Shown here: positions 24,347 through 61,386 of the stretch, piece after piece
Numbering within the stretch: the stretch's first letter is position 1
Layout of the letters: every line of letters starts with the position of its first letter
From: a virus
Direction: 5' to 3' (one strand)
IMG/VR virus record: IMGVR_UViG_3300020220_000008
Span: 62,001 to 126,000 of that record
Length of the DNA stretch: 64,000 bases
Translations under genes and position numbers: made by a program
Notes under the pieces: generated by a model
Databases searched by the model: none
The model's input: the letters and a program-made list of their open reading frames with translations, nothing else
What the model was told of the DNA's origin: nothing

Positions 24347-24361
24347 TATATTGTTTTATTG

Positions 24362-24373
24362 ATAAATATTTAT
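24362..24373. promoter_or_regulatory. Divergent TATTTAT boxes between neck gene and helicase
   Basis: The segment ATAAATATTTAT holds a minus-sense TATTTAT (24362-24368), 15 nt from the neck gene ATG, and a plus-sense TATTTAT (24367-24373), 30 nt before the presumed helicase start. The two overlap by 2 bp. Confidence 0.45.
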
Positions 24374-24403
24374 TTTATTGTTATTTTTAGTAAAAGACTT
24401 GGA

Positions 24404-40241: not shown

Positions 40242-43200
40242 ATGCCACAATATAATAGATTAACTGATAGGTCGAGAGTTTCTGCGGTCACACTGAATGA
40301 CATTATACATGTTGTTGTTACTGGTGATACATCACAGAGTCCTCAGGGATCATCATATTTTGCACCTTTAAGTGATTTACAATCAATATTAAGCGGATCA
40401 AGTGGTACCAATGGTACTTCAGGAACAAATGGAACTAGCGGTACTAATGGTACCTCAGGAATTAATGGGACTAGTGGTTCTTCAGGAACTTCTGGCTCAT
40501 CAGGAATAAGTGGAACATCGGGTTCTTCAGGAACAAGTGGTGTTTCAGGTACCAATGGATCAAGTGGTTCAAGCGGTACAAGTGGAATTAATGGTACATC
40601 AGGATCTTCAGGTATTGATGGTAGTAGTGGAACTTCAGGTTCAAGTGGAACCAATGGTACTAGTGGTACAAATGGTTTTGACGGAACATCAGGATCATCA
40701 GGAACTAGTGGTTCTTCAGGATTAAGTGGAACAGATGGTACGTCGGGAAGTTCTGGAACAAGCGGAACAGATGGTACTAGCGGTACGAATGGAACAAGCG
40801 GAACAGATGGTAGTTCAGGAACTAGCGGAACTTCAGGTTCAAGCGGTATTGCTGGGACTAGCGGAACTTCAGGTTCTTCAGGGATAGACGGAACAAGTGG
40901 TACTTCAGGTTCTTCAGGTATTGACGGCACTTCAGGAACATCGGGATCAAGCGGAACAAGTGGTACTAATGGAACTGATGGGTCTAGCGGTACGGATGGA
41001 ACTAATGGGTCAAGTGGAACTTCAGGAACCAACGGTACAGATGGAAGTAGTGGAACATCAGGTTCTAGTGGAACAAATGGTACTAGCGGGTCATCCGGAT
41101 CTAGCGGTACATCAGGGTCAAGTGGAACTAATGGTACTAGCGGGTCTTCAGGTACATCAGGAACTAACGGTACTAATGGAACAAGTGGAAGTAGCGGTAC
41201 GGACGGAACATCAGGGTCTTCAGGAACTAATGGGACATCAGGTACAAATGGTACATCAGGAACCAATGGAACTTCAGGAACGAACGGTACAAATGGTACA
41301 TCAGGAACCAATGGAACTTCAGGGACAAGTGGAAGTAGCGGTACCGACGGAACATCAGGGTCTAGCGGTACTAGCGGAAGTTCGGGAACAAATGGAACAT
41401 CAGGGTCTAGCGGATCAAGTGGTAGTTCAGGTTCTAGCGGTACAGACGGTACTTCAGGTACTTCAGGTTCAAGTGGTATAGACGGTACATCAGGTACATC
41501 AGGGAGCTCAGGCTCAAGCGGAACAAGTGGTTCTTCAGGCTCTAGTGGAACAAATGGTTCTTCAGGAACCTCAGGAACTAGCGGCTCTTCAGGTACAGAT
41601 GGTACAAGTGGAACAAGTGGTTCATCAGGGACTAGCGGTTCTTCAGGAACAAGTGGTTCATCAGGAACTAGCGGTTCTTCAGGAACAAGTGGTTCATCAG
41701 GTACCTCAGGTTCTAGTGGAAGTTCAGGTACAGATGGTACATCAGGAACAAGTGGTTCTTCAGGTTCTAGTGGAAGTTCAGGTACAGATGGTACATCAGG
41801 AACAAGTGGTTCATCAGGAACAAGTGGAAGTTCAGGTACAGATGGTTCATCAGGAACAAGCGGTTCATCAGGTACTTCAGGAAGTTCAGGTTCATCAGGT
41901 ACTTCAGGAAGTTCAGGTTCATCAGGTACTTCAGGAAGTTCAGGTTCATCAGGTACTTCAGGAAGTTCAGGTTCATCAGGAACAGATGGTACAAGTGGTA
42001 CAAGCGGCTCATCAGGAACAAGCGGTTCATCAGGTACATCAGGGAGCTCAGGTTCAAGCGGAACAAGCGGTTCATCAGGTACTTCAGGAAGTTCAGGTTC
42101 ATCAGGTACTTCAGGAAGTTCAGGTTCATCAGGAACAGATGGTACTTCAGGTACATCAGGTTCTAGTGGCTCATCGGGTTCCTCTGGAACAAGTGGTTCT
42201 TCAGGAACCTCAGGTTCTAGCGGCTCATCGGGTACTGATGGCACGTCTGGTACAAGTGGATCATCAGGAACAGATGGTACAAGTGGATCATCAGGAACAG
42301 ATGGTACAAGTGGTACATCAGGAAGTTCAGGTACAAGTGGTTCTTCAGGTTCATCAGGAACTTCAGGAAGTTCAGGCTCCTCAGGTACAAATGGTACTTC
42401 AGGGACTGATGGGACTAGCGGAACATCAGGTTCTTCAGGAACTAGCGGAAGCTCAGGTTCTTCAGGAACTAGCGGAAGCTCAGGTTCTTCAGGAACTAGC
42501 GGAAGCTCAGGTTCATCAGGCACTTCAGGTAGCTCAGGTTCTTCAGGAACTAGCGGAAGCTCAGGTTCTTCAGGAACTTCAGGAAGTTCAGGCTCCTCAG
42601 GTACAAATGGTACTTCAGGGACTGATGGGACTAGCGGAACATCAGGTTCTTCAGGAACTAGCGGAAGCTCAGGTTCTTCAGGAACTAGCGGAAGCTCAGG
42701 TTCTTCAGGAACTAGCGGAAGCTCAGGTTCATCAGGCACTTCAGGTAGCTCAGGTTCTTCAGGAACTAGCGGAAGCTCAGGTTCTTCAGGAACTTCAGGA
42801 AGTTCAGGTTCTTCAGGTACAAATGGTACTTCAGGGACTGATGGGACTAGCGGAACATCAGGTTCTTCAGGAACTAGCGGAAGCTCAGGTTCTTCAGGAA
42901 CTAGCGGAAGCTCAGGTTCATCAGGCACTTCAGGTAGCTCAGGTTCTTCAGGAACTAGCGGAAGCTCAGGTTCTTCAGGAACTTCAGGAAGTTCAGGTTC
43001 TTCAGGTACAAATGGTACTTCAGGGACTGATGGGACTAGCGGAACATCAGGTTCTTCAGGAACTAGCGGAAGCTCAGGTTCATCAGGCACTTCAGGTAGC
43101 TCAGGTTCTTCAGGAACTAGCGGAAGCTCAGGTTCTTCAGGAACTTCAGGAAGTTCAGGTTCTTCAGGAACTTCAGGAACTTCAGGTACAAGTGGAACAA

Positions 43201-45494
43201 ATGGAACCAGCGGAACTAATGGTACTTCAGGGACAAATGGTACTAGCGGTAGTTCAGGGACAAATGGTACATCAGGTACTAATGGAACTAGCGGGACAAA
43301 TGGGACAAGCGGAACTAGTGGGACCAACGGCACATCAGGGTCTAGTGGAACAAATGGAACTTCAGGCTCAAGCGGTACCAATGGAACATCAGGAAGTTCG
43401 GGCACGAATGGTACAAGTGGGTCTTCAGGCACTAACGGTACGTCAGGAACTAATGGAACCTCAGGAACGAACGGTACGAATGGTACTTCAGGAACAAATG
43501 GAACATCAGGTACTAATGGAACAAATGGTACTAGCGGTACAAATGGAACATCAGGTACAAACGGAACATCAGGTACCAACGGTACTAGTGGAACGTCGGG
43601 AACAAATGGAACCAACGGTACAAGCGGTACCAATGGTACAAGTGGAACTAACGGAACTAGTGGTACAAACGGAACAAATGGTACTTCAGGCACAAACGGA
43701 ACCTCAGGAACAAATGGAACCAACGGTACAAGCGGTACAAATGGAACATCAGGTACCAACGGTACTAGTGGAACGTCGGGAACAAATGGAACCAACGGTA
43801 CAAGCGGTACCAATGGTACAAGTGGAACATCGGGCACAAACGGAACCTCAGGAACAAATGGAACCAACGGTACAAGCGGTACAAATGGAACATCAGGTAC
43901 AAATGGAACATCAGGTACAAACGGAACAAATGGCACTAGCGGTACTAATGGAACAAATGGCACTAGCGGTACTAATGGAACATCGGGCACAAACGGAACC
44001 TCAGGAACAAATGGAACCAACGGTACAAGCGGTACAAGTGGAACCAACGGAACTTCAGGTACAAACGGGACAAATGGTACTAGCGGAACTAACGGTACTT
44101 CAGGTGTTAACGGAACAAGTGGTACAAATGGTACTTCAGGCACTAACGGTACGTCAGGAACAAATGGAACTAGTGGTACATCACCGTCGGTACCGGGAGG
44201 GGGGGGCAAAGTTTTAACATCAGATGGGTTGGGTGGGATTACGGCAGAATCAAATTTAACTTTTGATGGTACAGAATTAATCGTGACAGGTTATCAAAGA
44301 GTTGTTGATACAGTGGGAGGGGCACTTGGAAGTTTAAGAGTGGATAGTGCTGTCACTAACTTTTTACACAACGCAATATCTGTAACCAATACAGGAGATT
44401 TTACTAACACAAATTCATTAGTGGGTGTTAATGTGGATGTTACGGATGGTATTTTTTCTAACACATGTTTTGCAGGTTCAACATTTTCCGCATACGGTAG
44501 TAATTATGGTATCGATTTGAGAAACAGTTCCACCGAAACCGGTTCTTCACAATACGGAGCGTCAGTTAGTGTAAACGGTTCAGGACCAACAGAAAAGTAT
44601 GGGTATTATGGTTCTGTTAGTAATACTTCAGATTATAATTATGGTGTTTATGTCAATGTTGAGGACGCGACTGTGGAGAACTACGGACTTTATTCAAGAA
44701 TTGCTAGTAGTGTTGGAGACACATACGGGTTTTATATATCAAATACAGGTACGGATTCAGGTGGTTCTGATTTACATTATGGTGGAAAAATTCTTGTTAG
44801 TGGTATAGGTCAACCAACAAGTACAGTAAAATACGGGTTGGAAATTGATTTGACTGGTGATGCAAAAATTAATTATGGAGTTCACATTGATGTTGCAGGC
44901 GCAACAGACAATTTTAGTATTGTTACTCAAAATGGTTTTGCAATTTTTAATAACCTTGGCACATCAACCGCAGATTTTCAAGTCAAAGGAGACACGGATG
45001 ATAATCTTATTTATGTTGATGCCTCCACAGATAATTTAGGGATTGGGACAAACTTACCATCAAGAAAATTACATGTAAATGGTGATTATACTTTTGTTCA
45101 CAACCCAACTTCAGAATTAACTTCATCTGTTAGTGGTTATGGTGATATAGTAACATTTGGTTCGGGAAGTTTAACAGCAGGTGATTTATACTATTTGACA
45201 AGTTTGGGGTCTTGGTCGGCAACTGATGCAGATGCAGCGTCAACAGCAACAGGAATGTTAGCGTTTGCGTTGGGGTCCTCCGCATCGGACGGTATGTTAG
45301 TTAGAGGTTATATTAGAAATTCAGGATTTACAACAAATACAGGTAACATAGTCTATGTCTCAACAACCACAGGTGCTGTAACTACAACCGCACCATCAGG
45401 TAGCGGAGACATTATTAGAATTATTGGTTATAGTATAGACGGAACAAATGAAATAATTTATTTTAACCCTGATAATAGTTGGGTAGAGGTTTAA
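40242..45494 (+). CDS. Collagen-like tail fibre, 1750 aa
   Basis: N-terminal residues 1-50 (MPQYNRLTDRSRVSAVTLND) are a probable attachment domain. Residues about 52-1312 are some 420 uninterrupted Gly-X-Y triplets built almost only from Gly, Ser, Thr, Asn and Asp (GTSGTNG, GSSGTSG, GTDGTSG), with no proline in the repeat. The end is marked by TSPSVPGGGGK. Residues about 1320-1750 form a beta-rich head: a region of repeated 'Y-G-x-Y' strands (EKYGYYGSV, NYGVYVNV, NYGLYSRI, DTYGFYIS), then GDTDDNLIYVDASTDNLGIG, then a C-terminal adhesin-like domain. Bacterial and phage collagen repeats trimerise into rods, so this is probably a long trimeric fibre. Ser/Thr density makes it a plausible glycosylation target. 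Confidence 0.85.
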   Translation: MPQYNRLTDRSRVSAVTLNDIIHVVVTGDTSQSPQGSSYFAPLSDLQSILSGSSGTNGTSGTNGTSGTNGTSGINGTSGSSGTSGSSGISGTSGSSGTSGVSGTNGSSGSSGTSGINGTSGSSGIDGSSGTSGSSGTNGTSGTNGFDGTSGSSGTSGSSGLSGTDGTSGSSGTSGTDGTSGTNGTSGTDGSSGTSGTSGSSGIAGTSGTSGSSGIDGTSGTSGSSGIDGTSGTSGSSGTSGTNGTDGSSGTDGTNGSSGTSGTNGTDGSSGTSGSSGTNGTSGSSGSSGTSGSSGTNGTSGSSGTSGTNGTNGTSGSSGTDGTSGSSGTNGTSGTNGTSGTNGTSGTNGTNGTSGTNGTSGTSGSSGTDGTSGSSGTSGSSGTNGTSGSSGSSGSSGSSGTDGTSGTSGSSGIDGTSGTSGSSGSSGTSGSSGSSGTNGSSGTSGTSGSSGTDGTSGTSGSSGTSGSSGTSGSSGTSGSSGTSGSSGTSGSSGSSGTDGTSGTSGSSGSSGSSGTDGTSGTSGSSGTSGSSGTDGSSGTSGSSGTSGSSGSSGTSGSSGSSGTSGSSGSSGTSGSSGSSGTDGTSGTSGSSGTSGSSGTSGSSGSSGTSGSSGTSGSSGSSGTSGSSGSSGTDGTSGTSGSSGSSGSSGTSGSSGTSGSSGSSGTDGTSGTSGSSGTDGTSGSSGTDGTSGTSGSSGTSGSSGSSGTSGSSGSSGTNGTSGTDGTSGTSGSSGTSGSSGSSGTSGSSGSSGTSGSSGSSGTSGSSGSSGTSGSSGSSGTSGSSGSSGTNGTSGTDGTSGTSGSSGTSGSSGSSGTSGSSGSSGTSGSSGSSGTSGSSGSSGTSGSSGSSGTSGSSGSSGTNGTSGTDGTSGTSGSSGTSGSSGSSGTSGSSGSSGTSGSSGSSGTSGSSGSSGTSGSSGSSGTNGTSGTDGTSGTSGSSGTSGSSGSSGTSGSSGSSGTSGSSGSSGTSGSSGSSGTSGTSGTSGTNGTSGTNGTSGTNGTSGSSGTNGTSGTNGTSGTNGTSGTSGTNGTSGSSGTNGTSGSSGTNGTSGSSGTNGTSGSSGTNGTSGTNGTSGTNGTNGTSGTNGTSGTNGTNGTSGTNGTSGTNGTSGTNGTSGTSGTNGTNGTSGTNGTSGTNGTSGTNGTNGTSGTNGTSGTNGTNGTSGTNGTSGTNGTSGTSGTNGTNGTSGTNGTSGTSGTNGTSGTNGTNGTSGTNGTSGTNGTSGTNGTNGTSGTNGTNGTSGTNGTSGTNGTSGTNGTNGTSGTSGTNGTSGTNGTNGTSGTNGTSGVNGTSGTNGTSGTNGTSGTNGTSGTSPSVPGGGGKVLTSDGLGGITAESNLTFDGTELIVTGYQRVVDTVGGALGSLRVDSAVTNFLHNAISVTNTGDFTNTNSLVGVNVDVTDGIFSNTCFAGSTFSAYGSNYGIDLRNSSTETGSSQYGASVSVNGSGPTEKYGYYGSVSNTSDYNYGVYVNVEDATVENYGLYSRIASSVGDTYGFYISNTGTDSGGSDLHYGGKILVSGIGQPTSTVKYGLEIDLTGDAKINYGVHIDVAGATDNFSIVTQNGFAIFNNLGTSTADFQVKGDTDDNLIYVDASTDNLGIGTNLPSRKLHVNGDYTFVHNPTSELTSSVSGYGDIVTFGSGSLTAGDLYYLTSLGSWSATDADAASTATGMLAFALGSSASDGMLVRGYIRNSGFTTNTGNIVYVSTTTGAVTTTAPSGSGDIIRIIGYSIDGTNEIIYFNPDNSWVEV
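42384..43166 (+). repeat. Nested tandem repeats inside the fibre gene (216/216/189/162 bp)
   Basis: Four near-identical units start at 42384, 42600, 42816 and 43005 with GGTACAAATGG. Their lengths are 216, 216, 189 and 162 bp (72, 72, 63 and 54 codons). They differ by multiples of 27 bp, the length of an inner 9-residue repeat GTSGSSGSS. All changes keep the frame, so fibre length can vary by slippage or recombination. Confidence 0.9.
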
Positions 45495-45498
45495 TAAT

Positions 45499-46014
45499 AT
45501 GACAAAATTTAACGGTTTTGATTTTTATGATAAAAAACAAGTTGTTCTAACAAGTGGGATTCCAAGTGCATATGTTAATGCGGCATCCAATACAAAAATC
45601 ACTTCGGTATTTGTTCCAGCAAATACCTTTGCGGCTGGTGATATTTTGAGTATAGAGTGGGTTATTCGGTTAACAGGTGCAACTTCAGGAAACACTACTC
45701 TTTTTTTGTATTGGAATGAGACAGATGATTTAACAACACCGACTCAGTTACAAACTCGTAATACCTCCAATGCGACTGTTAGTAAGAGGAATTCTCTTAA
45801 TAGGAGACTTTCAATTGCCGTTGCTAATGGAACAGGTAATGGGTCAATTATGTATGGTGTTGCCGGAGCACAAGATACAGATTTTCCTGCAGTAACTTTT
45901 GCAATATCAAGTGGATTAGTATTAAATTGGACCATAGACTCTTACATAGTGTTATCCGGTTTTTCTACTATAAATACAGGAATTAGAACAGAGTTTTTCA
46001 AAGTTAGTAATTAA
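45499..46014 (+). CDS. Fibre-associated protein, first of three paralogues
   Basis: A 171-residue beta-rich protein 4 nt after the fibre stop. It shares a layout with the genes at 46277 and 46797: a short start (MTKFNGFDFY), a central FVPANTFAAGDILSIEW block near residues 37-53, then a strand with LFLYWNET, a RRLSIA segment near 102 and the ending LNWTIDSYIVLSG near 143. The repeated 'P-A-N-T-F-x-x-G-D' block is the family signature. Position suggests a small head or tip protein that assembles on or with the collagen-like fibre, with paralogues offering alternative receptor specificity. No database family is recognised. Confidence 0.65.
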   Translation: MTKFNGFDFYDKKQVVLTSGIPSAYVNAASNTKITSVFVPANTFAAGDILSIEWVIRLTGATSGNTTLFLYWNETDDLTTPTQLQTRNTSNATVSKRNSLNRRLSIAVANGTGNGSIMYGVAGAQDTDFPAVTFAISSGLVLNWTIDSYIVLSGFSTINTGIRTEFFKVSN

Positions 46015-46019
46015 AAATT

Positions 46020-46280
46020 ATGGTATATTTAGAAAAAAAATTAAATACATTAGTTAAGTCTGTAGGTTCAGATGGGGCGTCATTTTTAGATGTCCCAAGA
46101 ACTCTAACATTCACAATTGTCGATGAAGAGGGTCATAGTGGATATTTTTCAAATAATCCAGAGGATGTTTCAATAGAATTAGAGGAAAATATTATTTTTT
46201 TCAAAGTTAAAGACACTATAATTGATAATATTGAATTTCTCGATGCTCAAACAATGATAAATTATATTTACGACTTATGA
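46020..46280 (+). CDS. Small unknown protein in the fibre cluster
   Basis: An 86-residue protein starting MVYLEKKLNTLVKSVGSDGA, beta-rich in the middle (RTLTFTIVDEEGHSGYF) and acidic overall. It begins 5 nt after the first paralogue and overlaps the second by 4 nt (ATGA), so all are translated as a chain. It is unrelated in sequence to the three paralogues. A chaperone or minor fibre component is possible, but nothing in the sequence shows it. Confidence 0.55.
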   Translation: MVYLEKKLNTLVKSVGSDGASFLDVPRTLTFTIVDEEGHSGYFSNNPEDVSIELEENIIFFKVKDTIIDNIEFLDAQTMINYIYDL

Positions 46281-46804
46281 CAAAGATAATAGGTTTTAAT
46301 ATGTATAGTCCTTTTAAGACTATTAGTTTGACAACTCCTCAATCAACTACTTCTTCATTAACAGAAGTTAAGTTGGGATCAGTACTTGTTCCCGCCAACA
46401 CATTTGGGGCTGGCGATTCTTTGAAAATCGAGTGTTTTGCGAGAAAACAAAATACAAATGCAGTATCAAACATAAGGTTGTATTGGAATACCTCTGATAG
46501 TATATCATCACCAACACCAATTAGAATTGGTGAAAATTTAGGTATTATTGCAACGGCAACAGCAATTCCAATAGTTAGAAGATTAGGTGTTGTAACATCG
46601 GATGGTTCAGGAAGCGGGTCAAGTGCCTTATTAAATACAGTTGATTTTTTTTCAGATTACATAACATCAGCGGCCGGATTGTCTTCTGACCCAAGTAATT
46701 TGGCATTAAATTGGACTGTAGATAGTTATATTATATTGGCGGGTGATGTTGATAACGCATCAGATATATTAAATTGTCAATGGATAAGAATTACAAATGG
46801 CTAA
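46277..46804 (+). CDS. Fibre-associated protein, second paralogue
   Basis: A 175-residue member of the same family: MTKIIGFNMYSPF at the start, LVPANTFGAGDSLKIECFAR near residues 36-55, IRLYWNTSD near 63, VRRLGVVTSDGSG near 98 and LALNWTVDSYIILAGD near 142-157. It overlaps its neighbours by 4 nt (upstream) and 8 nt (downstream), so it is translationally coupled. Identity with the first paralogue is concentrated in the central block and the end, while the loops differ, as expected for receptor-binding surfaces. Confidence 0.65.
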   Translation: MTKIIGFNMYSPFKTISLTTPQSTTSSLTEVKLGSVLVPANTFGAGDSLKIECFARKQNTNAVSNIRLYWNTSDSISSPTPIRIGENLGIIATATAIPIVRRLGVVTSDGSGSGSSALLNTVDFFSDYITSAAGLSSDPSNLALNWTVDSYIILAGDVDNASDILNCQWIRITNG

Positions 46805-47312
46805 AATAATCGGGTATAATGTTGGTGTTAAATATAAAGTTGTAACCACTACAACACCTGCGGGTAGTGTAAACTCAATTTCTAATACTTTAATTAATTC
46901 ATTGTTAATTCCTGCAAATACATTTTCTTCAGGAGACATTGTTACGATAGAAACTTGTTTAACAAAAAGTGCAACTAATAATACTTTTAGTTTTTATTTT
47001 TATGTTAATACATCCGCAACACTTGTTGGTGCGACTTTAGTTGCAACAAACACATCAGTTGCAAGTAATGTAAGAGCGGCTCAACTTTATCGTAGACTTG
47101 CAGTCGATGTTGCTTCGGGTAGTGGTAATGGCACAATAATAATAAACACATCAATAGCTGCGAGAGATGATATAGGTGTCACAAATTATACTACAGGGTT
47201 TTCTACTTTAACAACTAATTGGACTACTGACCAATATTTAATTGTTTCAGGTTCTGTTGTTAGTACATCAGACACACTTAGTTGTCAGTGGATAAAGGCT
47301 TCGAACGGTTAA
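46797..47312 (+). CDS. Fibre-associated protein, third paralogue
   Basis: A 171-residue member of the family: MAKIIGYNVGVKYKVV, LIPANTFSSGDIVTIETCL near residues 37-55, a strand with FYFYVNTSA, YRRLAVDVASGSG near 100 and LTTNWTTDQYLIVSGS near 140-155. The C-terminus (LSCQWIKASNG) is nearly the same as in the second paralogue (LNCQWIRITNG), so these two are closest. Its stop is immediately followed, tail to tail, by the end of the giant sugar-transferase gene on the other strand, with no intergenic space. Confidence 0.65.
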   Translation: MAKIIGYNVGVKYKVVTTTTPAGSVNSISNTLINSLLIPANTFSSGDIVTIETCLTKSATNNTFSFYFYVNTSATLVGATLVATNTSVASNVRAAQLYRRLAVDVASGSGNGTIIINTSIAARDDIGVTNYTTGFSTLTTNWTTDQYLIVSGSVVSTSDTLSCQWIKASNG

Positions 47313-50258
47313 CTATCTATTATCTATGTAAATTATTACTTCATTATAATATTCAATGAAGTGTTCGTTCCATAAATCCCATTTTATGTCAATACCATCA
47401 ACAGAGAAAACTTGGTAATTTGGAAAATTTTTAAGGTAAGTGTTTCTAAATTTTCTAAAGTTTTCTTTACTTCCTTCATAATAATTTTCATTTAAGTGCC
47501 ACTCTCCTACAATTTTTTTTACATTATTTTTAATAAACTCATAATTATCATCCGTAAAAATATCGTATTCACCACCCTCACAATCGGTTTTTAAAAAATC
47601 AATTTTATCTATATTGTATAAGTTCAAAAATTTTGCAAAAGTAATACTTTCCATTTCATTTTGTGTACCCTTTACTGAGTTGAAAAGTCTGTCGTTTTTG
47701 GTAAGACAATCACTGTTCGATATTCCTTTCATGATATGTGTCACAGGGTTTCCTATTGTATTTTTTACAAGTGTTGGAAAAAGTTCTTTACAAGGTTCGA
47801 AACAAAAAATGTGTTTTGGTTTTTTATGTAATATTGAATAAGTAAATGGCCCTAAACTTGCACCAATATCCAAAACAATGTCACCCTCCTCAACCTCGAA
47901 AAATTTTTCATATATTTTATGTTCAAAAATTTCCTTTTTTATCGTCTCACTACACCACTCGTTATTAGTTCCCCAATCAAATAAGACCTCATGTACATGA
48001 TGTGTATTTTCTTCTTTATTTATAATCTTATCTATTTCTTTTATCACCATTTCAGATGTTATTTGTTTTGAACATTCAAACATTTTTTCACTTCCTTTAT
48101 GTAAAGGACACCAATTCCAATCACCGGCATCTAACCTGTCCCAATTAAAACATCCATGACATACATCTTCATTTATGACTCTATATGTATCCAAAGTTGT
48201 TTCTGTCCATTTTTTACTAAATCCCGAAATAAGAACTATTGGTAACTTACAAGCCCAAGCCAACCATGAAAGGCCTGAACCGAGACCTACAAAAAATTCA
48301 CATGTTGAAAGTTCATTTATTACTTCTTGTAAATCACCCCCATTGTATATTTTAACACCTTTTGGATAATAGTTACCCATATAACCATTTCCTTCTTTTG
48401 AATAAATTACACATTCATATCCAAGTGAATTCAAATAATCAACAACTTCTTGCCAACCATTTTTGTTATTCCAATATTTTGCTTGAGCTGTTGAGTGAAA
48501 ACCAATACCTGCTTTTTTCTTTTTTGAAACCTCAGGAAGATTAAGTTTTGGTCTTATTTCATTATAGTCTAATCCAAGAATATCAGTTGCAGTTTTTTGT
48601 AGTGGTTGAAGTTTAAAATCATTTGGATGTCTATTTTGATTAAACTTACCACTTTCATTATAGTACCATCCAAGTTGATATTGTGCAAAGATATTATAAA
48701 CAATAACCCCTGGCTCAACAAACTCTATTTCAGGGTATTGGTCAACAAACAAACTATTTAAAAAAGTTGATACAATGAGTTTGCAATTATGTTTTTTTCT
48801 AAATTCTTCGCAGTAAGGCATCCAAGCCAAAGTGTCCCCTAATGACTTTGAGCCAAACGATATATATACTCTTTTATTTTCTAAATTTAATATATCTGAA
48901 AAAACAACATTTCCATTTTCTTTAATTTCAGTTTTCCATGCTGTAAAATATTCTCTATTAAGTTTGACCCAAGAATTCATATCAATATTGTTGTTATAAA
49001 TTATATTATTTTTTTCATCATAAAATGCAACTTCAAATTTTGAATTGCCGTCACCTACTATTTCAAGATAAGGGTTTACAACAAAATGTTGGTTTATTTT
49101 ATAATCCTTATCAATCTTTTTGTTTTCAACAAAATCACAATTTTGTACTTTGTTATAAAACTTAAATAACTGATTTCCAAAACTTTCTTCTTCTTTGATA
49201 ATGTAAGTTTTTTTGTCCTCGATTAATTGAATTAATTTTTTTGAAATATCTTCGAAGTTATTTGAATCAATTGGAGTAATGTAGTCATCAAACATTCCCA
49301 TGTATTGAGGTAAATTTCTTGTTAAAATTTTAAGACCATAACTTATGGACTCACGAACCACAAGAGGATTACACTCAACTAATGAATTAAACATTAAAAC
49401 ATCTGATGCAATCATAAAGGATTCAACATCATTTCTTTCACCCCAAATGGTTACGTTAGATGGTAAGTTTTCCATGAGTGGACCCCAATAGTATTCAAAA
49501 TTTTCGGCCTGATTTCCAACAAAATGGAATTGAATGTTTGGATGAGTTTTTTCTAAAATACGAGCAATTTCAATACCTTCTTTTTGATTTTTTCCTTCTG
49601 TCCATAACCCAACATTAAGAACATGGGTTTTTGTTAAATCTAAACCTAATTGTTCTCTTCGATTAATTTTTTCAATCAACGGAACTTTATGTTCTGTTTT
49701 TGAAATTGTGTTTTTGTGGTATAAATAACTCACCTTATCCTCCAATGGATATGTAATGACTTCTTTAGGTGATTGTTTTTTATTATAAAGATTTTCTAAA
49801 TGATATGGCGTTACAAAACAATAATAATCTGGTTCAAAATTTTTATTGTTATTTGCATTGTACCAAATATTATGACAAGACTCAACAATTTTATAAGACC
49901 TATTGTTATTATAAATCTCGTTTAAAATATTAAGAGGTATTTTGTTAAAACTTTCAAAACCTTCAGGTACTTCTTCGAAATGAACAATATCTATATTGTT
50001 ATTTTTTATTATATCAAATAACTCTATTTTTTTTTCTTTTTCTGTAAAAGAACCAAGAGAAATGAAATGATTATTTCCTAACAAATCTATAATTTTATTT
50101 CTTTGTACCAAATAAATTGTGCTAAACTGCGAATATTCAACCAAATATACTTCAATTTCATTTTTGAATTTTTGCAAAGATTCAATTCTTTTTAATACAA
50201 ATTGTGGCATCCCTCCTGTTGAAAGGTGAGGAACCACATACATCAACTTTAATTTCAT
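47313..50258 (-). CDS. Trifunctional fusion: GT4 / O-heptosyltransferase-like / FkbM methyltransferase
   Basis: A 981-residue protein of three domains. Residues 1-370 are GT4-like: YVVPHLSTGGMPQFVLKRIE at the start, HVLNVGLWTEGKNQKEGIEI near 210-230 and SLVECNPLVVRESISYG near 300. Residues about 455-725 resemble the autotransporter O-heptosyltransferase (TibC/AAH) branch of GT9: FGSKSLGDTLAWMPYCEEF, FFVGLGSGLSWLAWACKLPI and the Cys set CHGC, WCPLHK, FECSKQI that binds iron in that family. Residues about 745-960 are FkbM-type methyltransferase: VDIGASLGPFTY, FCFEPCKELFPTL and FLKTDCEGGEYDIF. Characterised TibC-type enzymes put heptose on Ser of repeat proteins. The collagen-like fibre ends one gene cluster away. 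Confidence 0.8.
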   Translation of the reverse strand: MKLKLMYVVPHLSTGGMPQFVLKRIESLQKFKNEIEVYLVEYSQFSTIYLVQRNKIIDLLGNNHFISLGSFTEKEKKIELFDIIKNNNIDIVHFEEVPEGFESFNKIPLNILNEIYNNNRSYKIVESCHNIWYNANNNKNFEPDYYCFVTPYHLENLYNKKQSPKEVITYPLEDKVSYLYHKNTISKTEHKVPLIEKINRREQLGLDLTKTHVLNVGLWTEGKNQKEGIEIARILEKTHPNIQFHFVGNQAENFEYYWGPLMENLPSNVTIWGERNDVESFMIASDVLMFNSLVECNPLVVRESISYGLKILTRNLPQYMGMFDDYITPIDSNNFEDISKKLIQLIEDKKTYIIKEEESFGNQLFKFYNKVQNCDFVENKKIDKDYKINQHFVVNPYLEIVGDGNSKFEVAFYDEKNNIIYNNNIDMNSWVKLNREYFTAWKTEIKENGNVVFSDILNLENKRVYISFGSKSLGDTLAWMPYCEEFRKKHNCKLIVSTFLNSLFVDQYPEIEFVEPGVIVYNIFAQYQLGWYYNESGKFNQNRHPNDFKLQPLQKTATDILGLDYNEIRPKLNLPEVSKKKKAGIGFHSTAQAKYWNNKNGWQEVVDYLNSLGYECVIYSKEGNGYMGNYYPKGVKIYNGGDLQEVINELSTCEFFVGLGSGLSWLAWACKLPIVLISGFSKKWTETTLDTYRVINEDVCHGCFNWDRLDAGDWNWCPLHKGSEKMFECSKQITSEMVIKEIDKIINKEENTHHVHEVLFDWGTNNEWCSETIKKEIFEHKIYEKFFEVEEGDIVLDIGASLGPFTYSILHKKPKHIFCFEPCKELFPTLVKNTIGNPVTHIMKGISNSDCLTKNDRLFNSVKGTQNEMESITFAKFLNLYNIDKIDFLKTDCEGGEYDIFTDDNYEFIKNNVKKIVGEWHLNENYYEGSKENFRKFRNTYLKNFPNYQVFSVDGIDIKWDLWNEHFIEYYNEVIIYIDNR

Positions 50259-50311
50259 AATTTGAAAATAATTTATTCATATTATTTGTGAAGTTTCTTA
50301 CATTTTAAGTG

Positions 50312-51298
50312 ATGAAAAAAGTTTGTTTGGATTTATCTCAATCAAGAGCTCTTGGTGATACATTATGTTCAACACCAACGATTAGAAAATTATATAATTC
50401 TTATAATCAAAAAATTTCCATTATAACTCACCACAAAGAAATTTTTAAAAACAATCCATATGTTGATGTTATTTTCGATGTTGATGTGGAAAATCTAACA
50501 GATGAGTATGAAATTTTTAATTCCTTTGATGTTTTTTATAAACCAAATGGTGTTTGTAATAAACATAATGTTATGGATATACGACAATTTCATGCAATTA
50601 ATCTTGGGTTCATGTTAACAAAAAATGAAATGACCTTAGATTATATTCCATCACAAACTTCAATTATGAAAGAAATTCCAAGAAAATATGTTTTAATTCA
50701 TCCCGTACAGAATTGGAATTCAAGAACTTGGTCAATTGATAATTGGAGGGTACTAACAAAATTATTAAACGAGCAAAATATAAATGTGGTTTCAATTGGA
50801 AAAAATTCATCTGAGTTTGGAGGTTCAAATGTGGAAAAACATGTTTTTGATTTTGATATTGATTTGGGGGTTAATTTAATGAACAAAACAACTTTAGATG
50901 AAACATGGAACTTGATTGAATATTCATTGTGTTTTGTTACAATGGACTCAGGACTTTTACATTTGGCAGGAACAACCGATGCTCAAATAATTCAACTTGG
51001 AAGTTCAATAAACTATGAATTTAGAGCTCCTTATAGAAATGGTTCACAAGATTACAAATATTCTTACGTTGGTGGTGGTTGTAATTTGGCATGTGCTTCT
51101 GATATGAAACATGGGGTAAAAGAATGGGGGTCAATTCAAGGGATACCCCCACTTGTTAATTGTTTAGAAAATAAAAAATCATTTGAATGTCATCCTACGG
51201 TATTACAGGTATATAGAAAAATAATGGAATTACTGCAGTCTGTATTTATAATATATGGCAACATTCAAGACATGAATTTTTTTCAAGTCAAAGTTTAA
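50312..51298 (+). CDS. GT9 heptosyltransferase-like protein with altered C-terminus
   Basis: A 328-residue protein (ATG at 50312; the GTG just before it is not needed). GT9 features: LSQSRALGDTLCSTPTIRKL at residues 7-26, YVLIHPVQNWNSRTWSIDNW near 127-146, FVTMDSGLLHLAGTTDAQII near 210-229 and a Cys-bearing end (GGGCNLACASDM, NCLENKKSFECHP). Comparison with the remnant at 39858 shows the family normally ends shortly after LQVYxKxxE. Here the last ~20 residues (SVFIIYGNIQDMNFFQ) come from the antisense of a truncated gene, so the original stop was lost by recombination. It is divergent from the trifunctional gene with a 53-nt spacer. It probably acts with it. Confidence 0.75.
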   Translation: MKKVCLDLSQSRALGDTLCSTPTIRKLYNSYNQKISIITHHKEIFKNNPYVDVIFDVDVENLTDEYEIFNSFDVFYKPNGVCNKHNVMDIRQFHAINLGFMLTKNEMTLDYIPSQTSIMKEIPRKYVLIHPVQNWNSRTWSIDNWRVLTKLLNEQNINVVSIGKNSSEFGGSNVEKHVFDFDIDLGVNLMNKTTLDETWNLIEYSLCFVTMDSGLLHLAGTTDAQIIQLGSSINYEFRAPYRNGSQDYKYSYVGGGCNLACASDMKHGVKEWGSIQGIPPLVNCLENKKSFECHPTVLQVYRKIMELLQSVFIIYGNIQDMNFFQVKV

Positions 51299-51869
51299 TT
51301 TTTCTTTGGTTTGAATTTTTTTAAGTATTGATGGTTTTTTGTTTTCAATTGGGTATTGAAGAACTTTTTTATAAACTTTTTCTAATTCGAACGTTTTTAA
51401 ATGATATGGAGTTACAAACAAATATGAGTCAGGACGAAATTTTCTGTTTTTTGGATCAAACCAAATGTTATGACATGTCTCAACAATCTTCCAAGTTCTT
51501 TTGTTATCATATAACTCGGTAAGAATACTAATTGGAATTTGATTGAAACTTTCAAACCCTTCAGAAATTTCTTCAATGTGAACAATATCAATTTGATTTT
51601 TTTTTATGATATCAACTAACTTATTTTTTTTTTTCGATATGGTTTGGTGTTCCCAAAGAATAAAAATTATCTTCACCGATTAGGTCTATTATTTTATTTC
51701 TTTGGACAACATATTGATTACCAAAATAAGAATATTCAACAACGTTTACTTTAAAATTATTATATAAAGATTGAATTCTTTTCAATGCAAATTGGGGCAT
51801 CCCACCTGTTGATAAGTGAGGAACAACGTATAATATATTAATTTTTATCGATAGAAAATTTTGTTTCAT
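51230..51869 (-). pseudogene. Truncated, frameshifted paralogue of the GT4 domain
   Basis: Starting at ATG 51869, the frame encodes INILYVVPHLSTGGMPQFAL and continues parallel to residues 1-95 of the trifunctional protein up to SLGTPNHIEKKK. It then stops within a run of eleven A (plus-strand T run 51624-51634). The continuation is in another frame (LVDIIKKNQIDIVHIEEISE onward) as far as HVLNVA, where similarity ends at about 51257, and the frame stops at 51230. It therefore lacks the rest of GT4 and both other domains. Its 3' end overlaps the GT9 gene on the other strand by 69 nt. A sequencing error in the homopolymer could explain the shift but not the truncation. Confidence 0.85.
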
Positions 51870-51962: not shown

Positions 51963-52385
51963 TTATTGTGTAATACACGGATTCCAACTTGGTGTTGGTG
52001 TTGGACTGTTGCTCACGGTAGGGGTTGGAGTTGGGGTTGATGTTGTGGTTGGTGTTAATGTTGGAACTTTACAAGGATCGATAGATGGTGTTGGTGTTAT
52101 CGTTGAAGTTGGAGTTGGTGTGGGGGTTTTTGTTGGAGTAATAGTCGGAGTTGGTGTAGGAGTCGGTCTAACAACATCTAAAAAATAAGGACAATTAGAA
52201 AAAACAGGTTTGATAGTATATGATCCATATATTTCTCTTGGTGGATATAATAAATGAGGTTCAAATAAGAATGGTAATGTTATTTCGTGTAAATTAATGA
52301 CAACATCATCATTGTCTGGTTTGAATAACACTTCTGCTAATTCACCATCATAAAAAACACTTCGAATTATTATATTTTGACTCAT
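51963..52385 (-). CDS. Pro-Thr-tailed small structural protein
   Basis: A 140-residue protein. Residues 1-70 form a compact beta domain (MSQNIIIRSVFYDGELAEVL, then VVINLHEITLPFLF), and residues 72-140 are a Pro-Thr tail with Cys spacers (PTPTPTPTITPTKTPTPTPT, SIDPCKVPTLTPT, SWNPCITQ). Unlike the other Pro-Thr proteins it has no domain after the tail, so the tail may be a free surface filament or be truncated. Its ATG directly follows the TAG of the upstream 728-aa gene, so the two are coupled. The gap to the broken GT4 copy (51870-51962) is AT-rich and empty. Confidence 0.6.
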   Translation of the reverse strand: MSQNIIIRSVFYDGELAEVLFKPDNDDVVINLHEITLPFLFEPHLLYPPREIYGSYTIKPVFSNCPYFLDVVRPTPTPTPTITPTKTPTPTPTSTITPTPSIDPCKVPTLTPTTTSTPTPTPTVSNSPTPTPSWNPCITQ

Positions 52386-54572
52386 CTATGTATTAATTAT
52401 TGTGTATGTAAAATCATTAGGGAAACATGATGATGTGTCACATACAGGACAATCGGGGTCGAACATGCTAAACTTATCTTTTAATATTTTAAAATTGTGT
52501 TTCACCTCAGGACTAGAAATAGGTTGAGTATAAAATCTAAATTGAGAAATTGCACCGTCTAAAGTTCCTGCAAAATTTTCTTCCAATAAAATGTGTGTTT
52601 TCAATTTATTTAAAGTTGTTGCACTCAATATGTTTTCAGGAAAACATTCGGGATCTTGAATATAATACCCTTCTGACGTATCGGTACAAGAAGATAAGGT
52701 AAGATTTTCATGAAGTCCTTGAGTTCCCCCACCCCAAGACATATTGAACGGAACGGCCACTTGTCTTTCTTTGTCGGTGTCTAAAGCCCTCGGAATTACT
52801 TCTTCAAAATTTTCGATAGTATAAAATATTCTTCCATTGATATAGATTTTTAATCTACCCAACCTAAATTTAGTTTCATCTAACCAAATTCGATTTAGTT
52901 GGACTATCTTTACTTGTTGTGGGATTTCATATCCATTTGTGTAAGGAGGTTGGATTAAGGATACTGTGTTATTTGCCAAACTTTGTAAAAACTCTACTCT
53001 TGTTATTTGATCTAATCCACCAAACCATCTGAGGTCACAAAAATCTATAAAAGTATAACGTTCGAAAACAACATCCAATAAGAACCAATGCTCTAAGTTT
53101 AACCAAGCTGGATTTACTTCTAAACAATAAGGATAAATTGGTGGCGTACAAATATCTTGTATTGTATATCCAGTGACATAAGTTTGACCTGTTACACATG
53201 TTCCAGTAGTTTGACATTCTCCTGTAATTTTCAAAACTCGAATTCCAATACCAGGATTTTTTGGGTCGCCACACAAACGGATAGAAAAATTATTTGACAA
53301 AGCGTCAAATTTTGGATCTTTTTCACAAGTATCCTCTATTGATTTAAAGACATTGGAAGGTTCAGTTGGCGGACATCCACAAGTATCACAACCACAACTT
53401 GGACATGCCGTACAACAAGGTTTTGTTGGGCATGGTATCACATCAGAATATGTATCACATGATGGAGTTGGTGATGGAGTAGGTGTTGGTGTTGGTGTCG
53501 GGACAATTATTGTTTCACACTTATGTTCGAAACACATCCATCCACAGGTTTTACAGGGGTCCAAATCACAACCGCATCCACATGTCAGTTTTGTTTCATA
53601 ATTCCCATTACATAAGTTACATCCGTAATTCACATGAGGATCGTATTCACCACCAATTGGTCTCGGCGGATATACGTAAATACATCTACTATTTTTGATA
53701 TCATAATTACAACAAGCACAAGTTTCGAAACAATTAGTTAAACCACTTGTAACTCTCGTATAATTTGAGTCGCATTTTGGTGAACCATCGGCATAATGAT
53801 AAAATTTATTTTCTGCTCTTGTTCCCAAATAGAATAACGTATTTTTGTTTTTTGGATAAATTTCATTCAAAGTTGTATATCCAACAGGTGGGTTGTATTC
53901 ATTAAAAAATCTTGGTTTTAACAAAACTTCAACTGACCATCCTTTATTGAATCGTTCAGGTAATATTTCATAGTCATAACCAAATAATTTATAAAAACCT
54001 TGATAAAATCCACCATATAGTTCAATGTATCTCCCAACTTGGGGACTATACTTAGAAACCATTTCGTAAGAAGTGTAGTAAGTAACACCTGAAAATTTAT
54101 TGTTCTTTGGTACATTTGTTGTTGTTTGAATAAGTTTCATTCTTCGGTCATAAAACATTCTATTAAATTTTACTTCATCACTAAAAAGTCCGTTTGTAAA
54201 ATTTAATAATTCACCTTCAATTAAATTTACCAATCCGTTATCAACTCCCGTTAATCCAATATCACAAGTTGTTCCAGCGGTGAAACATTCAATTCTTAAA
54301 TCCTCGGGTTGATAAAAAGTTTCAGATATAACAACATTTTCAAAATTGTAGGACCCATAGTTTAATGTTAAATTTAAGGAAGATAGAGGGCTATTCAAAT
54401 CAATATTAATGGGTAATTTTTTACCGTCATTAACACCTATTATATATGGTGAAAAAATAACTTCTTGATTGAAGTCGACCTCATCGGAAGCTAAAGACAT
54501 ATCTTGTCCATCATAAAGGACTTGTAATTTTAACTTTGGGTAAATATATTGATTTATATTTTGATAAGACAT
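52386..54572 (-). CDS. Cys-rich structural protein with concanavalin/LamG-like domain
   Basis: A 728-residue virion-type protein. Residues 1-285 are beta-rich (SYEMVSKYSPQVGRYIELYG). Residues about 275-400 are very Cys-rich (CACCNYDIKNSRC, CGCGCDLDPCKTCGWMC, CCTACPSCGCDTCGC) and contain a Pro-Thr linker near residue 358 (IVPTPTPTPTPSPTPS). Residues about 470-705 look like a LamG/concanavalin sandwich: LNLEHWFLLDVVFERY, LGRLKIYINGRIFYTIENF and VPFNMSWGGGTQGLHENL. Such domains bind carbohydrate or form fibre heads. A TATTTAT box lies 11 nt upstream. The function is inferred to be an appendage or adhesin; the Cys cluster might bind metal or form disulfides. Confidence 0.65.
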   Translation of the reverse strand: MSYQNINQYIYPKLKLQVLYDGQDMSLASDEVDFNQEVIFSPYIIGVNDGKKLPINIDLNSPLSSLNLTLNYGSYNFENVVISETFYQPEDLRIECFTAGTTCDIGLTGVDNGLVNLIEGELLNFTNGLFSDEVKFNRMFYDRRMKLIQTTTNVPKNNKFSGVTYYTSYEMVSKYSPQVGRYIELYGGFYQGFYKLFGYDYEILPERFNKGWSVEVLLKPRFFNEYNPPVGYTTLNEIYPKNKNTLFYLGTRAENKFYHYADGSPKCDSNYTRVTSGLTNCFETCACCNYDIKNSRCIYVYPPRPIGGEYDPHVNYGCNLCNGNYETKLTCGCGCDLDPCKTCGWMCFEHKCETIIVPTPTPTPTPSPTPSCDTYSDVIPCPTKPCCTACPSCGCDTCGCPPTEPSNVFKSIEDTCEKDPKFDALSNNFSIRLCGDPKNPGIGIRVLKITGECQTTGTCVTGQTYVTGYTIQDICTPPIYPYCLEVNPAWLNLEHWFLLDVVFERYTFIDFCDLRWFGGLDQITRVEFLQSLANNTVSLIQPPYTNGYEIPQQVKIVQLNRIWLDETKFRLGRLKIYINGRIFYTIENFEEVIPRALDTDKERQVAVPFNMSWGGGTQGLHENLTLSSCTDTSEGYYIQDPECFPENILSATTLNKLKTHILLEENFAGTLDGAISQFRFYTQPISSPEVKHNFKILKDKFSMFDPDCPVCDTSSCFPNDFTYTIINT

Positions 54573-57325: not shown

Positions 57326-57447
57326 TGAAAATTACGATGAAAAAAAATTTAGAATTGATAAAACAAAAAAATATGGTTATAATTCATAAGTAAGACGGGA
57401 AATGACTATTAAAAAATATTTTTCCTTTATTAGAATTGAAACCAAAC

Positions 57448-58662
57448 ATGAAAGAAAAAATCAAAATTTTAGTACTACCTTCAGACGCATCAGGAGTAGG
57501 AAAATATCGGTCAGTCGACCCACACATTATGTTACAAAATTTATATCCTGACGATTTCCACGTCGATATAGATTTCACACCGAAAGTTAGTGATTTTAAT
57601 TATTGGAAAAATTACCAAATTGTTCATTTTCATAGAAATTTTGGAACCTTAGAACAATGTCCAACAATTATCAAAGCCCTTAAAAGTATGGGGATTATTG
57701 TTATTGCCGACCTCGATGATTATTGGTTACCAACAAAAGAACACCCTATTCACAATTTAATTTTGGCAGACAAAATGAATTCAAAAATTATCGAGAATCT
57801 TAAGGCTGCCGATTATGTAACAACCACAACTGAAATATTTGCAAATGAAATTAGAAAAATTAACAAAAATGTTATTGTTTTTCCAAACGCAATTGACCCG
57901 AAAGAAGGACAGTTTAATAAACCAACATTACCTTCAGACAAAATAAGAGTTGGTTGGTTAGGCGGTTCTTCTCATTTACATGATCTTAAATTATTAGATG
58001 GAATGGTTGGCAAACTATCAAGTCAACAGGATAAATTACAATTTTATTTGTGTGGATTCGATATACGAGGTTCCGTAACCGAAATTAATAAAGACACTGG
58101 AGAAAAAAAACAAAGACCTATTAAACCTGAAGAAACTGTTTGGGCAAGGTATGAAGAGATTTTTACAAATAATTATAAAATTGTTTCTCCTGAATATAAA
58201 TTATTTTTGAATCAATATAAGGAAGAAGATTTTCCTAACCTTTACAATGAAAATTATGTTCGTGTTTGGACTAGACCAACTGACTCATACGCAAAAAATT
58301 ATTCAAAATTTGACATCTCATTAGCACCAATTAAAAACCACATATTTAATAGAATGAAATCCCAACTCAAAGTTATTGAAGCGGGATTTTACAAAAAAAC
58401 CATAATTGCATCAAATCTTGGACCGTACACAATTGATTTGAAACACGCCCTAAAAAATGGTCAATTTACGGATGGAAATGCACTTTTAGTCGATGAAGTA
58501 AGAAATCATAGTGATTGGGTCAAAAATATTAAAAAATTAGTTGATAATCCAAATATGATTGTAGATCTTGGCGAAAAATTATATGAAACCGTTAAAGACA
58601 AATATGACTTAAACTTTGTGACTCATCGAAGATCCGAATTTTACAAATCCTTAATTAAATAA
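57448..58662 (+). CDS. Glycosyltransferase, GT4-like
   Basis: A 404-residue protein from the ATG at 57448 (MKEKIKILVLPSDASGVGKY); a TTG 12 nt upstream is not needed. GT-B features: an N-terminal strand with GVGKYR, KNYQIVHFHRNFGTLEQCPT near 58-77, IADLDDYWLPTKEHPIHNL near 90-110, the interdomain strand IRVGWLGGSSHLHDLKLLDG near 170-190, and a C-terminal LKVIEAGFYKKTIIASNLGP near 308-328 that would bind the donor nucleotide through the Glu. The substrate is unknown. It is the first gene of the right-hand sugar cluster. It starts about 120 nt after a terminator, so it should have its own promoter, though no TATTTAT box is seen. Confidence 0.75.
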   Translation: MKEKIKILVLPSDASGVGKYRSVDPHIMLQNLYPDDFHVDIDFTPKVSDFNYWKNYQIVHFHRNFGTLEQCPTIIKALKSMGIIVIADLDDYWLPTKEHPIHNLILADKMNSKIIENLKAADYVTTTTEIFANEIRKINKNVIVFPNAIDPKEGQFNKPTLPSDKIRVGWLGGSSHLHDLKLLDGMVGKLSSQQDKLQFYLCGFDIRGSVTEINKDTGEKKQRPIKPEETVWARYEEIFTNNYKIVSPEYKLFLNQYKEEDFPNLYNENYVRVWTRPTDSYAKNYSKFDISLAPIKNHIFNRMKSQLKVIEAGFYKKTIIASNLGPYTIDLKHALKNGQFTDGNALLVDEVRNHSDWVKNIKKLVDNPNMIVDLGEKLYETVKDKYDLNFVTHRRSEFYKSLIK

Positions 58663-58664
58663 AA

Positions 58665-59390
58665 ATGATTAATATTCCAATAACAAAAATTTTATTTTTA
58701 GATATCGAAACCGTTGGTGGATGTGCTGATTACCAAACGTGTATCAATTTTAATCCCAAAGTTGCCGAACAATTTGATAAATACTTTGATTGGTTTTTGA
58801 AAAGATTTCCTGAAGATAAAGAATCGGGTAAAGAAAAAACAACTGAAGAACACATGGATATTGTTTTCAAAAAACGAGCGGCACTTGTTCCTGAGTTTGC
58901 AAAGATTGTTTGTGTATCCATGGCATTTGTTTTAGATAATGGAGAAACAAAAAGACAAACATTTTTAGGTGATGATGAACATAAACTACTTACTGAAGTA
59001 AGAGACCTTTTGAACCGTTGTCATAAATTAGATTTTTATTTATGTGGACATAATTTAAAAAACTTTGATATTCCAATGTTAGCAAAACGAATGATTGTAA
59101 ATGGAATTATGCCATCTAAAATTCTACCGTCATACGATACTAAACCATGGGAGGTAAAAGCTATCGATACAAAAGAAATTTGGCAATACGGTGCATATAC
59201 ATCAATTGGATCTTTAGATTTAATGTGTGCTTGTTTAGACATCCCAACACCAAAAGATGGTGAGGTCAATGGTGGTATGGTACATGAGGCGTATTGGAGT
59301 CATAATAGATTAAAAGAAATCGCCGAATACTGTGAAAAAGATGTTAAAGTTTTGGTTGATACAATAATAAAATTAAAATCATTGAGATAA
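58665..59390 (+). CDS. DEDDy 3'-5' exonuclease, PolB-exonuclease-like
   Basis: A 241-residue stand-alone exonuclease. Exo I is ILFLDIETVGG near residues 9-19 (Asp and Glu), Exo II is YLCGHNLKNFDIPMLAKRM near 124-142 (Asp), and Exo III is IAEYCEKDVKVLVDTI near 218-233, with Tyr and Asp four residues apart, the DEDDy signature. This matches the family of predicted 3'-5' exonucleases related to the PolB proofreading domain. The phage polymerase already has its own exonuclease, so this one may process DNA or RNA ends, or degrade host nucleic acid. It follows the GT4 gene by 2 nt and is coupled by TAATG to dUTPase. Confidence 0.8.
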   Translation: MINIPITKILFLDIETVGGCADYQTCINFNPKVAEQFDKYFDWFLKRFPEDKESGKEKTTEEHMDIVFKKRAALVPEFAKIVCVSMAFVLDNGETKRQTFLGDDEHKLLTEVRDLLNRCHKLDFYLCGHNLKNFDIPMLAKRMIVNGIMPSKILPSYDTKPWEVKAIDTKEIWQYGAYTSIGSLDLMCACLDIPTPKDGEVNGGMVHEAYWSHNRLKEIAEYCEKDVKVLVDTIIKLKSLR

Positions 59391-60004
59391 TGAGTAAAGA
59401 ACTAAATAATAACGAAGAACAAGAAATAAACGCTCTTATAAAAATGTTAGAAGATCTAAATTCGAATGATAACGGAACTAGTGAGATTAATTATAATTCC
59501 TTATTTGACACAATTGGTTTAGACTTTCAAGAATTAGAAGATGAAATTAAATCATATGTCCCGAAACTTGACGTAAGTTATAAAAAATCAAATGAAAATA
59601 CGATTGATCCAAAATATGTTTATGAGTCAGATTCTGGTTTTGATTTATATAGTGTTGAAGATAAGTGGATTCATCCTTTTGATAGGATCCTTATTCCTAC
59701 GGGTCTTCATATTGATATACCTGATGGATACGAGATTCAAGTAAGATCTAAAAGTGGTTTAGCACTTAAACAGGGTTTAATGGTTTTGAATTCACCAGGA
59801 ACTGTAGATCAAGGATATTTAGGAGAAATACAAGTTATACTTTTCAATACCACAAATCAAAAAGTTAAAATCGAAAAAGGTCAAAAAATTGCTCAAGCGG
59901 TTTTATGTCCTGTGGTGTCGGGCAAATGGGTAAACCTAATTTCAAAAAATAAATTAGAAAATAAAGACCGAAATAATAATGGTTTTGGGTCAACTGGTTT
60001 ATGA
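59390..60004 (+). CDS. dut: Trimeric dUTPase with N-terminal extension
   Basis: It hydrolyses dUTP to dUMP, limiting uracil in phage DNA and supplying dTMP synthesis. All five motifs are present: I DSGFDLYS, II RSKSGLA, III SPGTVDQGYLGEIQVILFN, IV GQKIAQAVLCPV and V NNNGFGSTG. The catalytic core starts near residue 62; before it is an acidic helical extension (NNNEEQEINALIKMLEDLNS) not typical of the family, giving 204 residues rather than about 150. Its ATG overlaps the exonuclease stop and its end overlaps the next glycosyltransferase by 4 nt, so nucleotide-metabolism and sugar genes share one operon. Confidence 0.93.
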   Translation: MSKELNNNEEQEINALIKMLEDLNSNDNGTSEINYNSLFDTIGLDFQELEDEIKSYVPKLDVSYKKSNENTIDPKYVYESDSGFDLYSVEDKWIHPFDRILIPTGLHIDIPDGYEIQVRSKSGLALKQGLMVLNSPGTVDQGYLGEIQVILFNTTNQKVKIEKGQKIAQAVLCPVVSGKWVNLISKNKLENKDRNNNGFGSTGL

Positions 60005-61380: not shown

Positions 61381-61386
61381 AATAAT

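Follow-up and report, generated by a model that had tools for sequence, protein, structure and literature searches.

Phage glycosyltransferases are commonly assigned to the modification of DNA or of the host surface, and to our knowledge little is known about the glycosylation of virion proteins in tailed phages. Here, we analysed a 64,000-nucleotide window of a viral genome (positions 62,001 to 126,000 of IMG/VR virus record IMGVR_UViG_3300020220_000008) that encodes, in one chain, a GT4 domain, a TibC-like glycosyltransferase domain and an FkbM-type methyltransferase domain, close to the gene of a collagen-like fibre. We consider it likely that the phage uses this fusion enzyme to O-glycosylate its own collagen-like tail fibre and to cap the glycan with a methyl group. 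The closest described enzymes are TibC and AAH (TIGR04414; PDB 4rap, 4rb4; PMC4358343), with which the phage enzyme has in common the fold, including the N-terminal beta-barrel, four Cys residues and the residues D110, T226, K230 and W305 (TibC numbering). It differs in being fused to GT4 and FkbM domains, in the replacements R286 to V and P300 to G, in its position outside the TibC clade and in its collagen-like partner, where that of TibC/AAH is a strand-loop-strand protein. TibC-type enzymes are protein O-glycosyltransferases; Arg286 of TibC, conserved in the BAHT family, makes contact with N1 of adenine and keeps guanine out, and an Ala mutant at this position has greatly reduced activity or none (PMC4358343).

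Two further systems are, by analogy, possible precedents for the idea though not for the enzymes. In Mimivirus, the multidomain enzyme L230 (collagen lysyl hydroxylase/glucosyltransferase) adds sugars to Gly-X-Y proteins of the virus itself, the tracts of which are also proline-poor (PMC9614988), but the enzymes are unrelated, the sugar is placed on hydroxylysine and the virus is eukaryotic. BclA of the Bacillus exosporium has a collagen-like region bearing oligosaccharides that include an O-methylated sugar (PMC6222408, PMC8968730), although it is a bacterial spore protein and the comparison concerns the glycoproteins. In the open-access literature searched, we found no direct precedent either for TibC-type enzymes in phages or for phage fibres of the collagen-like kind that are glycosylated.

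The fusion protein is encoded by a single, uninterrupted open reading frame (ORF) with the following features:

47313..50258, minus strand: GT4 - TibC-like glycosyltransferase - FkbM fusion protein, 981 amino acids (aa) (ORF, domain profiles, AlphaFold model)
49119..50258, minus strand: GT4 domain, residues 1-380 (Pfam; GT4 fold match; E-x7-E motif)
48003..49106, minus strand: TibC-like (BAHT) domain, residues 385-752, in which the N-terminal beta-barrel of TibC has its counterpart (TIGR04414; structure match)
48321..48323, minus strand: Val646, counterpart of the adenine-contacting Arg286 of TibC (alignment)
48072..48161, minus strand: iron-finger segment with Cys700, 703, 717 and 729, equivalent to TibC 339, 342, 358 and 370 (alignment)
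47316..47990, minus strand: FkbM-type methyltransferase domain, residues 757-981, with DIGASLG and DCEGGE motifs (profiles, motifs)

Judged by sequence, the three domains are intact, each with its catalytic set, and Pfam and NCBIfam matches bear out an earlier sequence-only reading that had proposed this three-domain chain. The GT4 domain matches PF00534 (residues 199-351, E 5e-16) and carries the E-x7-E motif as ECNPLVVRE (residues 295-303). The central domain scored 281 bits against TIGR04414 (hepto_Aah_TibC; curated cut-off 200) over residues 406-745, and TibC is its only strong sequence relative in the PDB (E 1e-63). An AlphaFold model built from a 33-row alignment (mean predicted local distance difference test score, pLDDT, 85.6) has TibC (4rb4) as its top structural match (VIA-align Z 35.9, root-mean-square deviation 2.8), with residues 385-752 on TibC 21-394, so that the whole TibC-like domain follows the TibC fold. 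Residues 1-375 of the model match GT4 structures, including HepE, at Z ~29, showing a GT-B fold. The FkbM domain was assigned from sequence profiles and motifs (Pfam E 8e-10 at residues 795-932; TIGR01444, 47.6 bits against a cut-off of 37.7), matches to the GT4 and TibC domains having taken up the fold-search list.

The sequence-only reading had also ascribed an iron-coordinating Cys set to the middle domain, and the motifs CHGC, WCPLHK and FECSKQ do align exactly to Cys339, 342, 358 and 370 of TibC. All four are kept in 67 of 68 representatives (the single exception resembles a broken row), and a metal site is predicted. D110, T226, K230 and W305 of TibC correspond to D475, T590, K594 and W665, with D110 and W305 invariant across the 68 representatives. 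Grouping with lipopolysaccharide (LPS) heptosyltransferases, which that reading had named as the outcome that would count against it, was rejected (TIGR02193, 17.9 bits, versus TIGR04414, 281 bits). A TibC-type enzyme is thus upheld by profile, fold and Cys residues, whereas the ADP-heptose donor implied by the comparison is in doubt. Position 286 is Val in 31 and Arg in 15 of the 68 representatives; it is Val in nearly the entire clade of fused proteins, while Arg286 is present in TibC and in all five canonical copies from Methylococcales (see below). With P300 also replaced by Gly, the term "heptosyl" is unproven for this protein, which retains the residues for catalysis and metal binding but has lost the one that recognises the base. 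No gene of the ADP-heptose pathway reached its curated cut-off among ~20 sugar genes scanned (part of the genome's ORFs), the sole related match being an RfaE-II/TagD-like protein far below cut-off, and supply of ADP-heptose by the phage was rejected on these grounds. The donor of the first step would be an activated sugar but need not be ADP-heptose. Gmd-like and Fcl-like proteins (GDP-mannose 4,6-dehydratase and GDP-fucose synthase) are also encoded by the phage, below equivalog cut-offs, and we conjecture that GDP-deoxysugars could serve as donors in one step.

The proposed acceptor and the ORFs separating it from the enzyme gene are:

40242..45494, plus strand: collagen-like fibre, 1750 aa, proposed acceptor (Pfam Collagen, 564 bits; NCBIfam collagen-like models)
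40395..44183, plus strand: Gly-X-Y tract of 421 triplets, Pro-free and containing 719 Ser/Thr (sequence count)
45499-47312, plus strand: three paralogues of ~171-175 aa between fibre and enzyme, with no PHROG match

The triplets are uninterrupted, X being mostly Thr or Ser and Y mostly Ser or Asn, and this long repeat together with the Pfam match identifies the predicted protein as collagen-like. Its gene lies 1.8 kb from the enzyme gene and convergent to it, with small ORFs between; the link to a repetitive Ser/Thr protein drawn in the sequence-only reading thus holds, but the accompanying analogy to beta-helix autotransporters does not. The fibre matched collagen models only, with no match to the TIGR04415 strand-loop-strand model at E values up to 1, and an autotransporter or beta-helix substrate was rejected on this basis and on the position of the phage protein outside the TibC clade. 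The TibC enzyme fold is shared and the proposed substrate class is different; the phage enzyme probably works like an autotransporter heptosyltransferase on another kind of repeat. We infer that the fibre would sit in the virion tail, that the central domain would attach a first sugar to Ser/Thr of the Gly-Ser/Thr-X triplets, in the cytoplasm of the infected cell and before assembly, that the GT4 domain would extend it with a second sugar, and that the FkbM domain would O-methylate the product as a cap. A proline-free Gly-X-Y fibre may in this way be stabilised or shielded, or its binding altered.

Linkage between enzyme and fibre genes extends across viral contigs. We considered 18 independent viral clusters whose loci had been ascertained by their BAHT gene and had flanks of 5 kb or more on either side. 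In 10 of them, the gene of a Ser/Thr-rich collagen is no more than 8 kb away, and in 8 the distance is at most 2.5 kb. Within the fused clade, enzyme and collagen genes mostly converge, with gaps that may be as short as 3-150 bp, and one contig pairs two GT4-BAHT genes with a separate neighbouring collagen gene each. In a cultured relative, Microcystis phage Mel-JY01, 1.7 kb separate the BAHT gene from the gene of a Ser/Thr-rich collagen. Direct adjacency was found in 5 of 12 contigs longer than 60 kb, far above chance even allowing three fibre genes per contig. We also compared viral contigs picked by DNA pattern (Gly-Thr-Asn/Gly-Thr-Ser versus Gly-Pro-Gln repeats; four of the 50 control contigs were shorter than 20 kb). 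Among the matches listed, TIGR04414 genes occurred in 29/50 contigs with Ser/Thr-type collagen and 1/50 with the Pro/Gln type (Fisher 2e-10; 6e-8 with near-identical positives collapsed to 20, hand-counted from clusters), a contrast that is partly phylogenetic because the two fibre types represent different phage lineages.

The enzyme might instead alter LPS or capsule on the host surface to block superinfection, with the proximity of the fibre reflecting no more than a host-recognition island in which both kinds of gene accumulate. Phage glycosyltransferases in such islands are usually interpreted in this manner (PMC7029224), and the phage genome has many other glycosyltransferase genes. We nonetheless regard this as unlikely, given that TibC-type enzymes modify proteins (PMC4358343), that linkage is to the Ser/Thr and not the Pro/Gln type of collagen, and that the same enzyme-tract pairing is present in bacterial chromosomes. 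A target in another phage structural protein (the capsid, or the small neighbours at 45499-47312) is suggested by the three paralogues between fibre and enzyme, but seems improbable, because many relatives have the collagen gene immediately beside the enzyme gene, at 3-150 bp with nothing between.

The fusion also recurs in other phages, for which the sequence-only reading had proposed a search. At least 80 related loci were found in a viral scan, and the same fusion was identified in about 16 additional viral lineages, with 57-69% identity. As the same domain order recurs in many independent viral contigs, it is not an assembly accident. Fusions of the GT4-BAHT-FkbM or GT4-BAHT type form one supported clade of ~17 clusters (85% identity), and in other phages these domains are spread in part over adjacent genes (GT4|BAHT, GT4|BAHT-FkbM, BAHT|FkbM) or combined with further ones. 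These partly split arrangements favour the idea that one polypeptide could build a capped glycan.

Bacterial relatives were surveyed in 201 Methylococcales genomes and a class-level sample (Gammaproteobacteria), where TIGR04414 matches over the cut-off form two score groups, at ~655 and ~300 bits. None of the five high-scoring, canonical copies (in four genomes) has a Gly-X-Y neighbour, and the four neighbours scanned match TIGR04415 and AIDA models. Low-scoring, divergent genes lie 41-154 bp from the gene of a Gly-Thr-Ser tract protein in 7/8 cases; the partners scanned match Pfam Collagen, one marginally below cut-off. In Methylobacter and relatives, a single-domain homologue is 13-41 bp from a secreted Gly-Thr-Ser/Ala tract protein, and the DNA pattern of the tract occurs in 5/7 Methylococcales genomes with a divergent gene versus 4/194 without. 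These divergent Methylococcaceae enzymes (e.g., Methylobacter luteus, L373, with the enzyme at 7821-9119 and its neighbour at 6917-7780), for which no earlier description was found in the literature searched, resemble the phage enzyme in having I, V or M at position 286 and in adjoining a secreted Gly-Thr-Ser tract gene, but are single-domain, with partners that have a signal-peptide-like start and a short tract. The tract proteins of L375 and L373 have an extra repeated non-collagen domain (LLVIPCVDVRNSxFxGHYNVVM) beside the Gly-Thr-Ser tract. Tandem GGAACCAGC-type 9-base DNA repeats were also seen away from the enzyme gene in Methylococcales (G235:C22:58607 and G236:C1:2579024).

In the family tree, TibC and the five autotransporter-linked canonical copies form one clade (support 100) that excludes the phage proteins, and the window protein falls in a 31-row group (98% support) with the Methylococcaceae enzymes, which are its closest relatives from bacteria in this tree. 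The collagen-linked genes do not all belong to a single clade, since L381 and L463 keep Arg286 and lie nearer TibC; hence, Gly-X-Y linkage may be an older state or may have arisen repeatedly. The tree bears also on whether the protein is simply a heptosyltransferase of the autotransporter kind, using ADP-heptose to modify a strand-loop-strand protein of the host. Although the above-cut-off TIGR04414 score, the iron finger and the catalytic base fit such an enzyme, its place outside the fully supported TibC/autotransporter clade, the replacement of Arg286 and Pro300 and a fibre without a TIGR04415 match make this highly improbable. We do not class the protein with the autotransporter heptosyltransferases, since it lacks three of their defining features: Arg286, a TIGR04415 partner and membership of the TibC clade.

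Several points weigh against glycosylation of the fibre, besides the phylogenetic component of the contig comparison. It draws on sequence and a model, in which the iron-finger segment has low pLDDT and hence a tentative geometry. The many other glycosyltransferases of the phage make another target possible. Eight of the 18 viral clusters lack such a fibre in the available flank (no other common Ser/Thr-rich partner emerged at loci without Gly-X-Y fibres), and in some contigs with both genes they are far apart. If three such fibre genes per phage are assumed, linkage within 8 kb is not significant, while adjacency still is.

Two further features adjoin the enzyme gene:

50309..51298, plus strand: second GT9-type glycosyltransferase, 329 aa (Pfam GT9, 59 bits)
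51230..51869, minus strand: degenerate copy, frameshifted and limited to the N-terminal part of GT4 (53-58% identity to residues 2-221)

The GT9-type protein is a probable partner of the fusion enzyme; similar weak TIGR04414 matches accompany the main gene at short distance in about 13 of 29 positive contigs. The degenerate copy has its frameshift at a T-rich run and is truncated at its junction with the GT9 gene. Two adjacent proteins with Pro-Thr dipeptide runs (PTPTPT; 51963-54572, minus strand) are another possible O-glycosylation target. A large sugar cluster (57436-63570, plus strand, and L089, G000 126-138 kb) comprises a GT2 tandem, GT25, GT11, a HAD and nucleotidyltransferase fusion, a DegT aminotransferase, a GNAT-Gmd fusion and an Fcl-like gene. 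Elsewhere, an SNF2 helicase is split by a LAGLIDADG/homing endonuclease domain, probably an intein (24266-27301, plus strand), and a protein at L090:10680-11972 (minus strand) has a long EMDDED-type acidic repeat. The stretches scanned yielded no tRNA.

In many lineages, the enzyme gene and that of its probable substrate occur together, and Methylobacter offers a minimal parallel, with one enzyme gene adjoining the gene of one secreted tract protein. Because related bacterial enzymes also adjoin collagen-like proteins, an unrecognised enzyme branch is suggested. The wider proposal, for and against which we see about equal weight, is that TIGR04414 contains a second enzyme type, separate from the autotransporter heptosyltransferases, which O-glycosylates collagen-like Gly-Ser/Thr-X tracts of both bacterial and phage proteins. 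Its Val286 clade would probably use a donor that is not ADP-heptose, and the phage GT4/FkbM fusion would build a methyl-capped tail-fibre glycan. If true, this would split a curated family named for autotransporter heptosyltransferases, as the name would cover enzymes that differ both in their partner and in a residue contacting the nucleotide.
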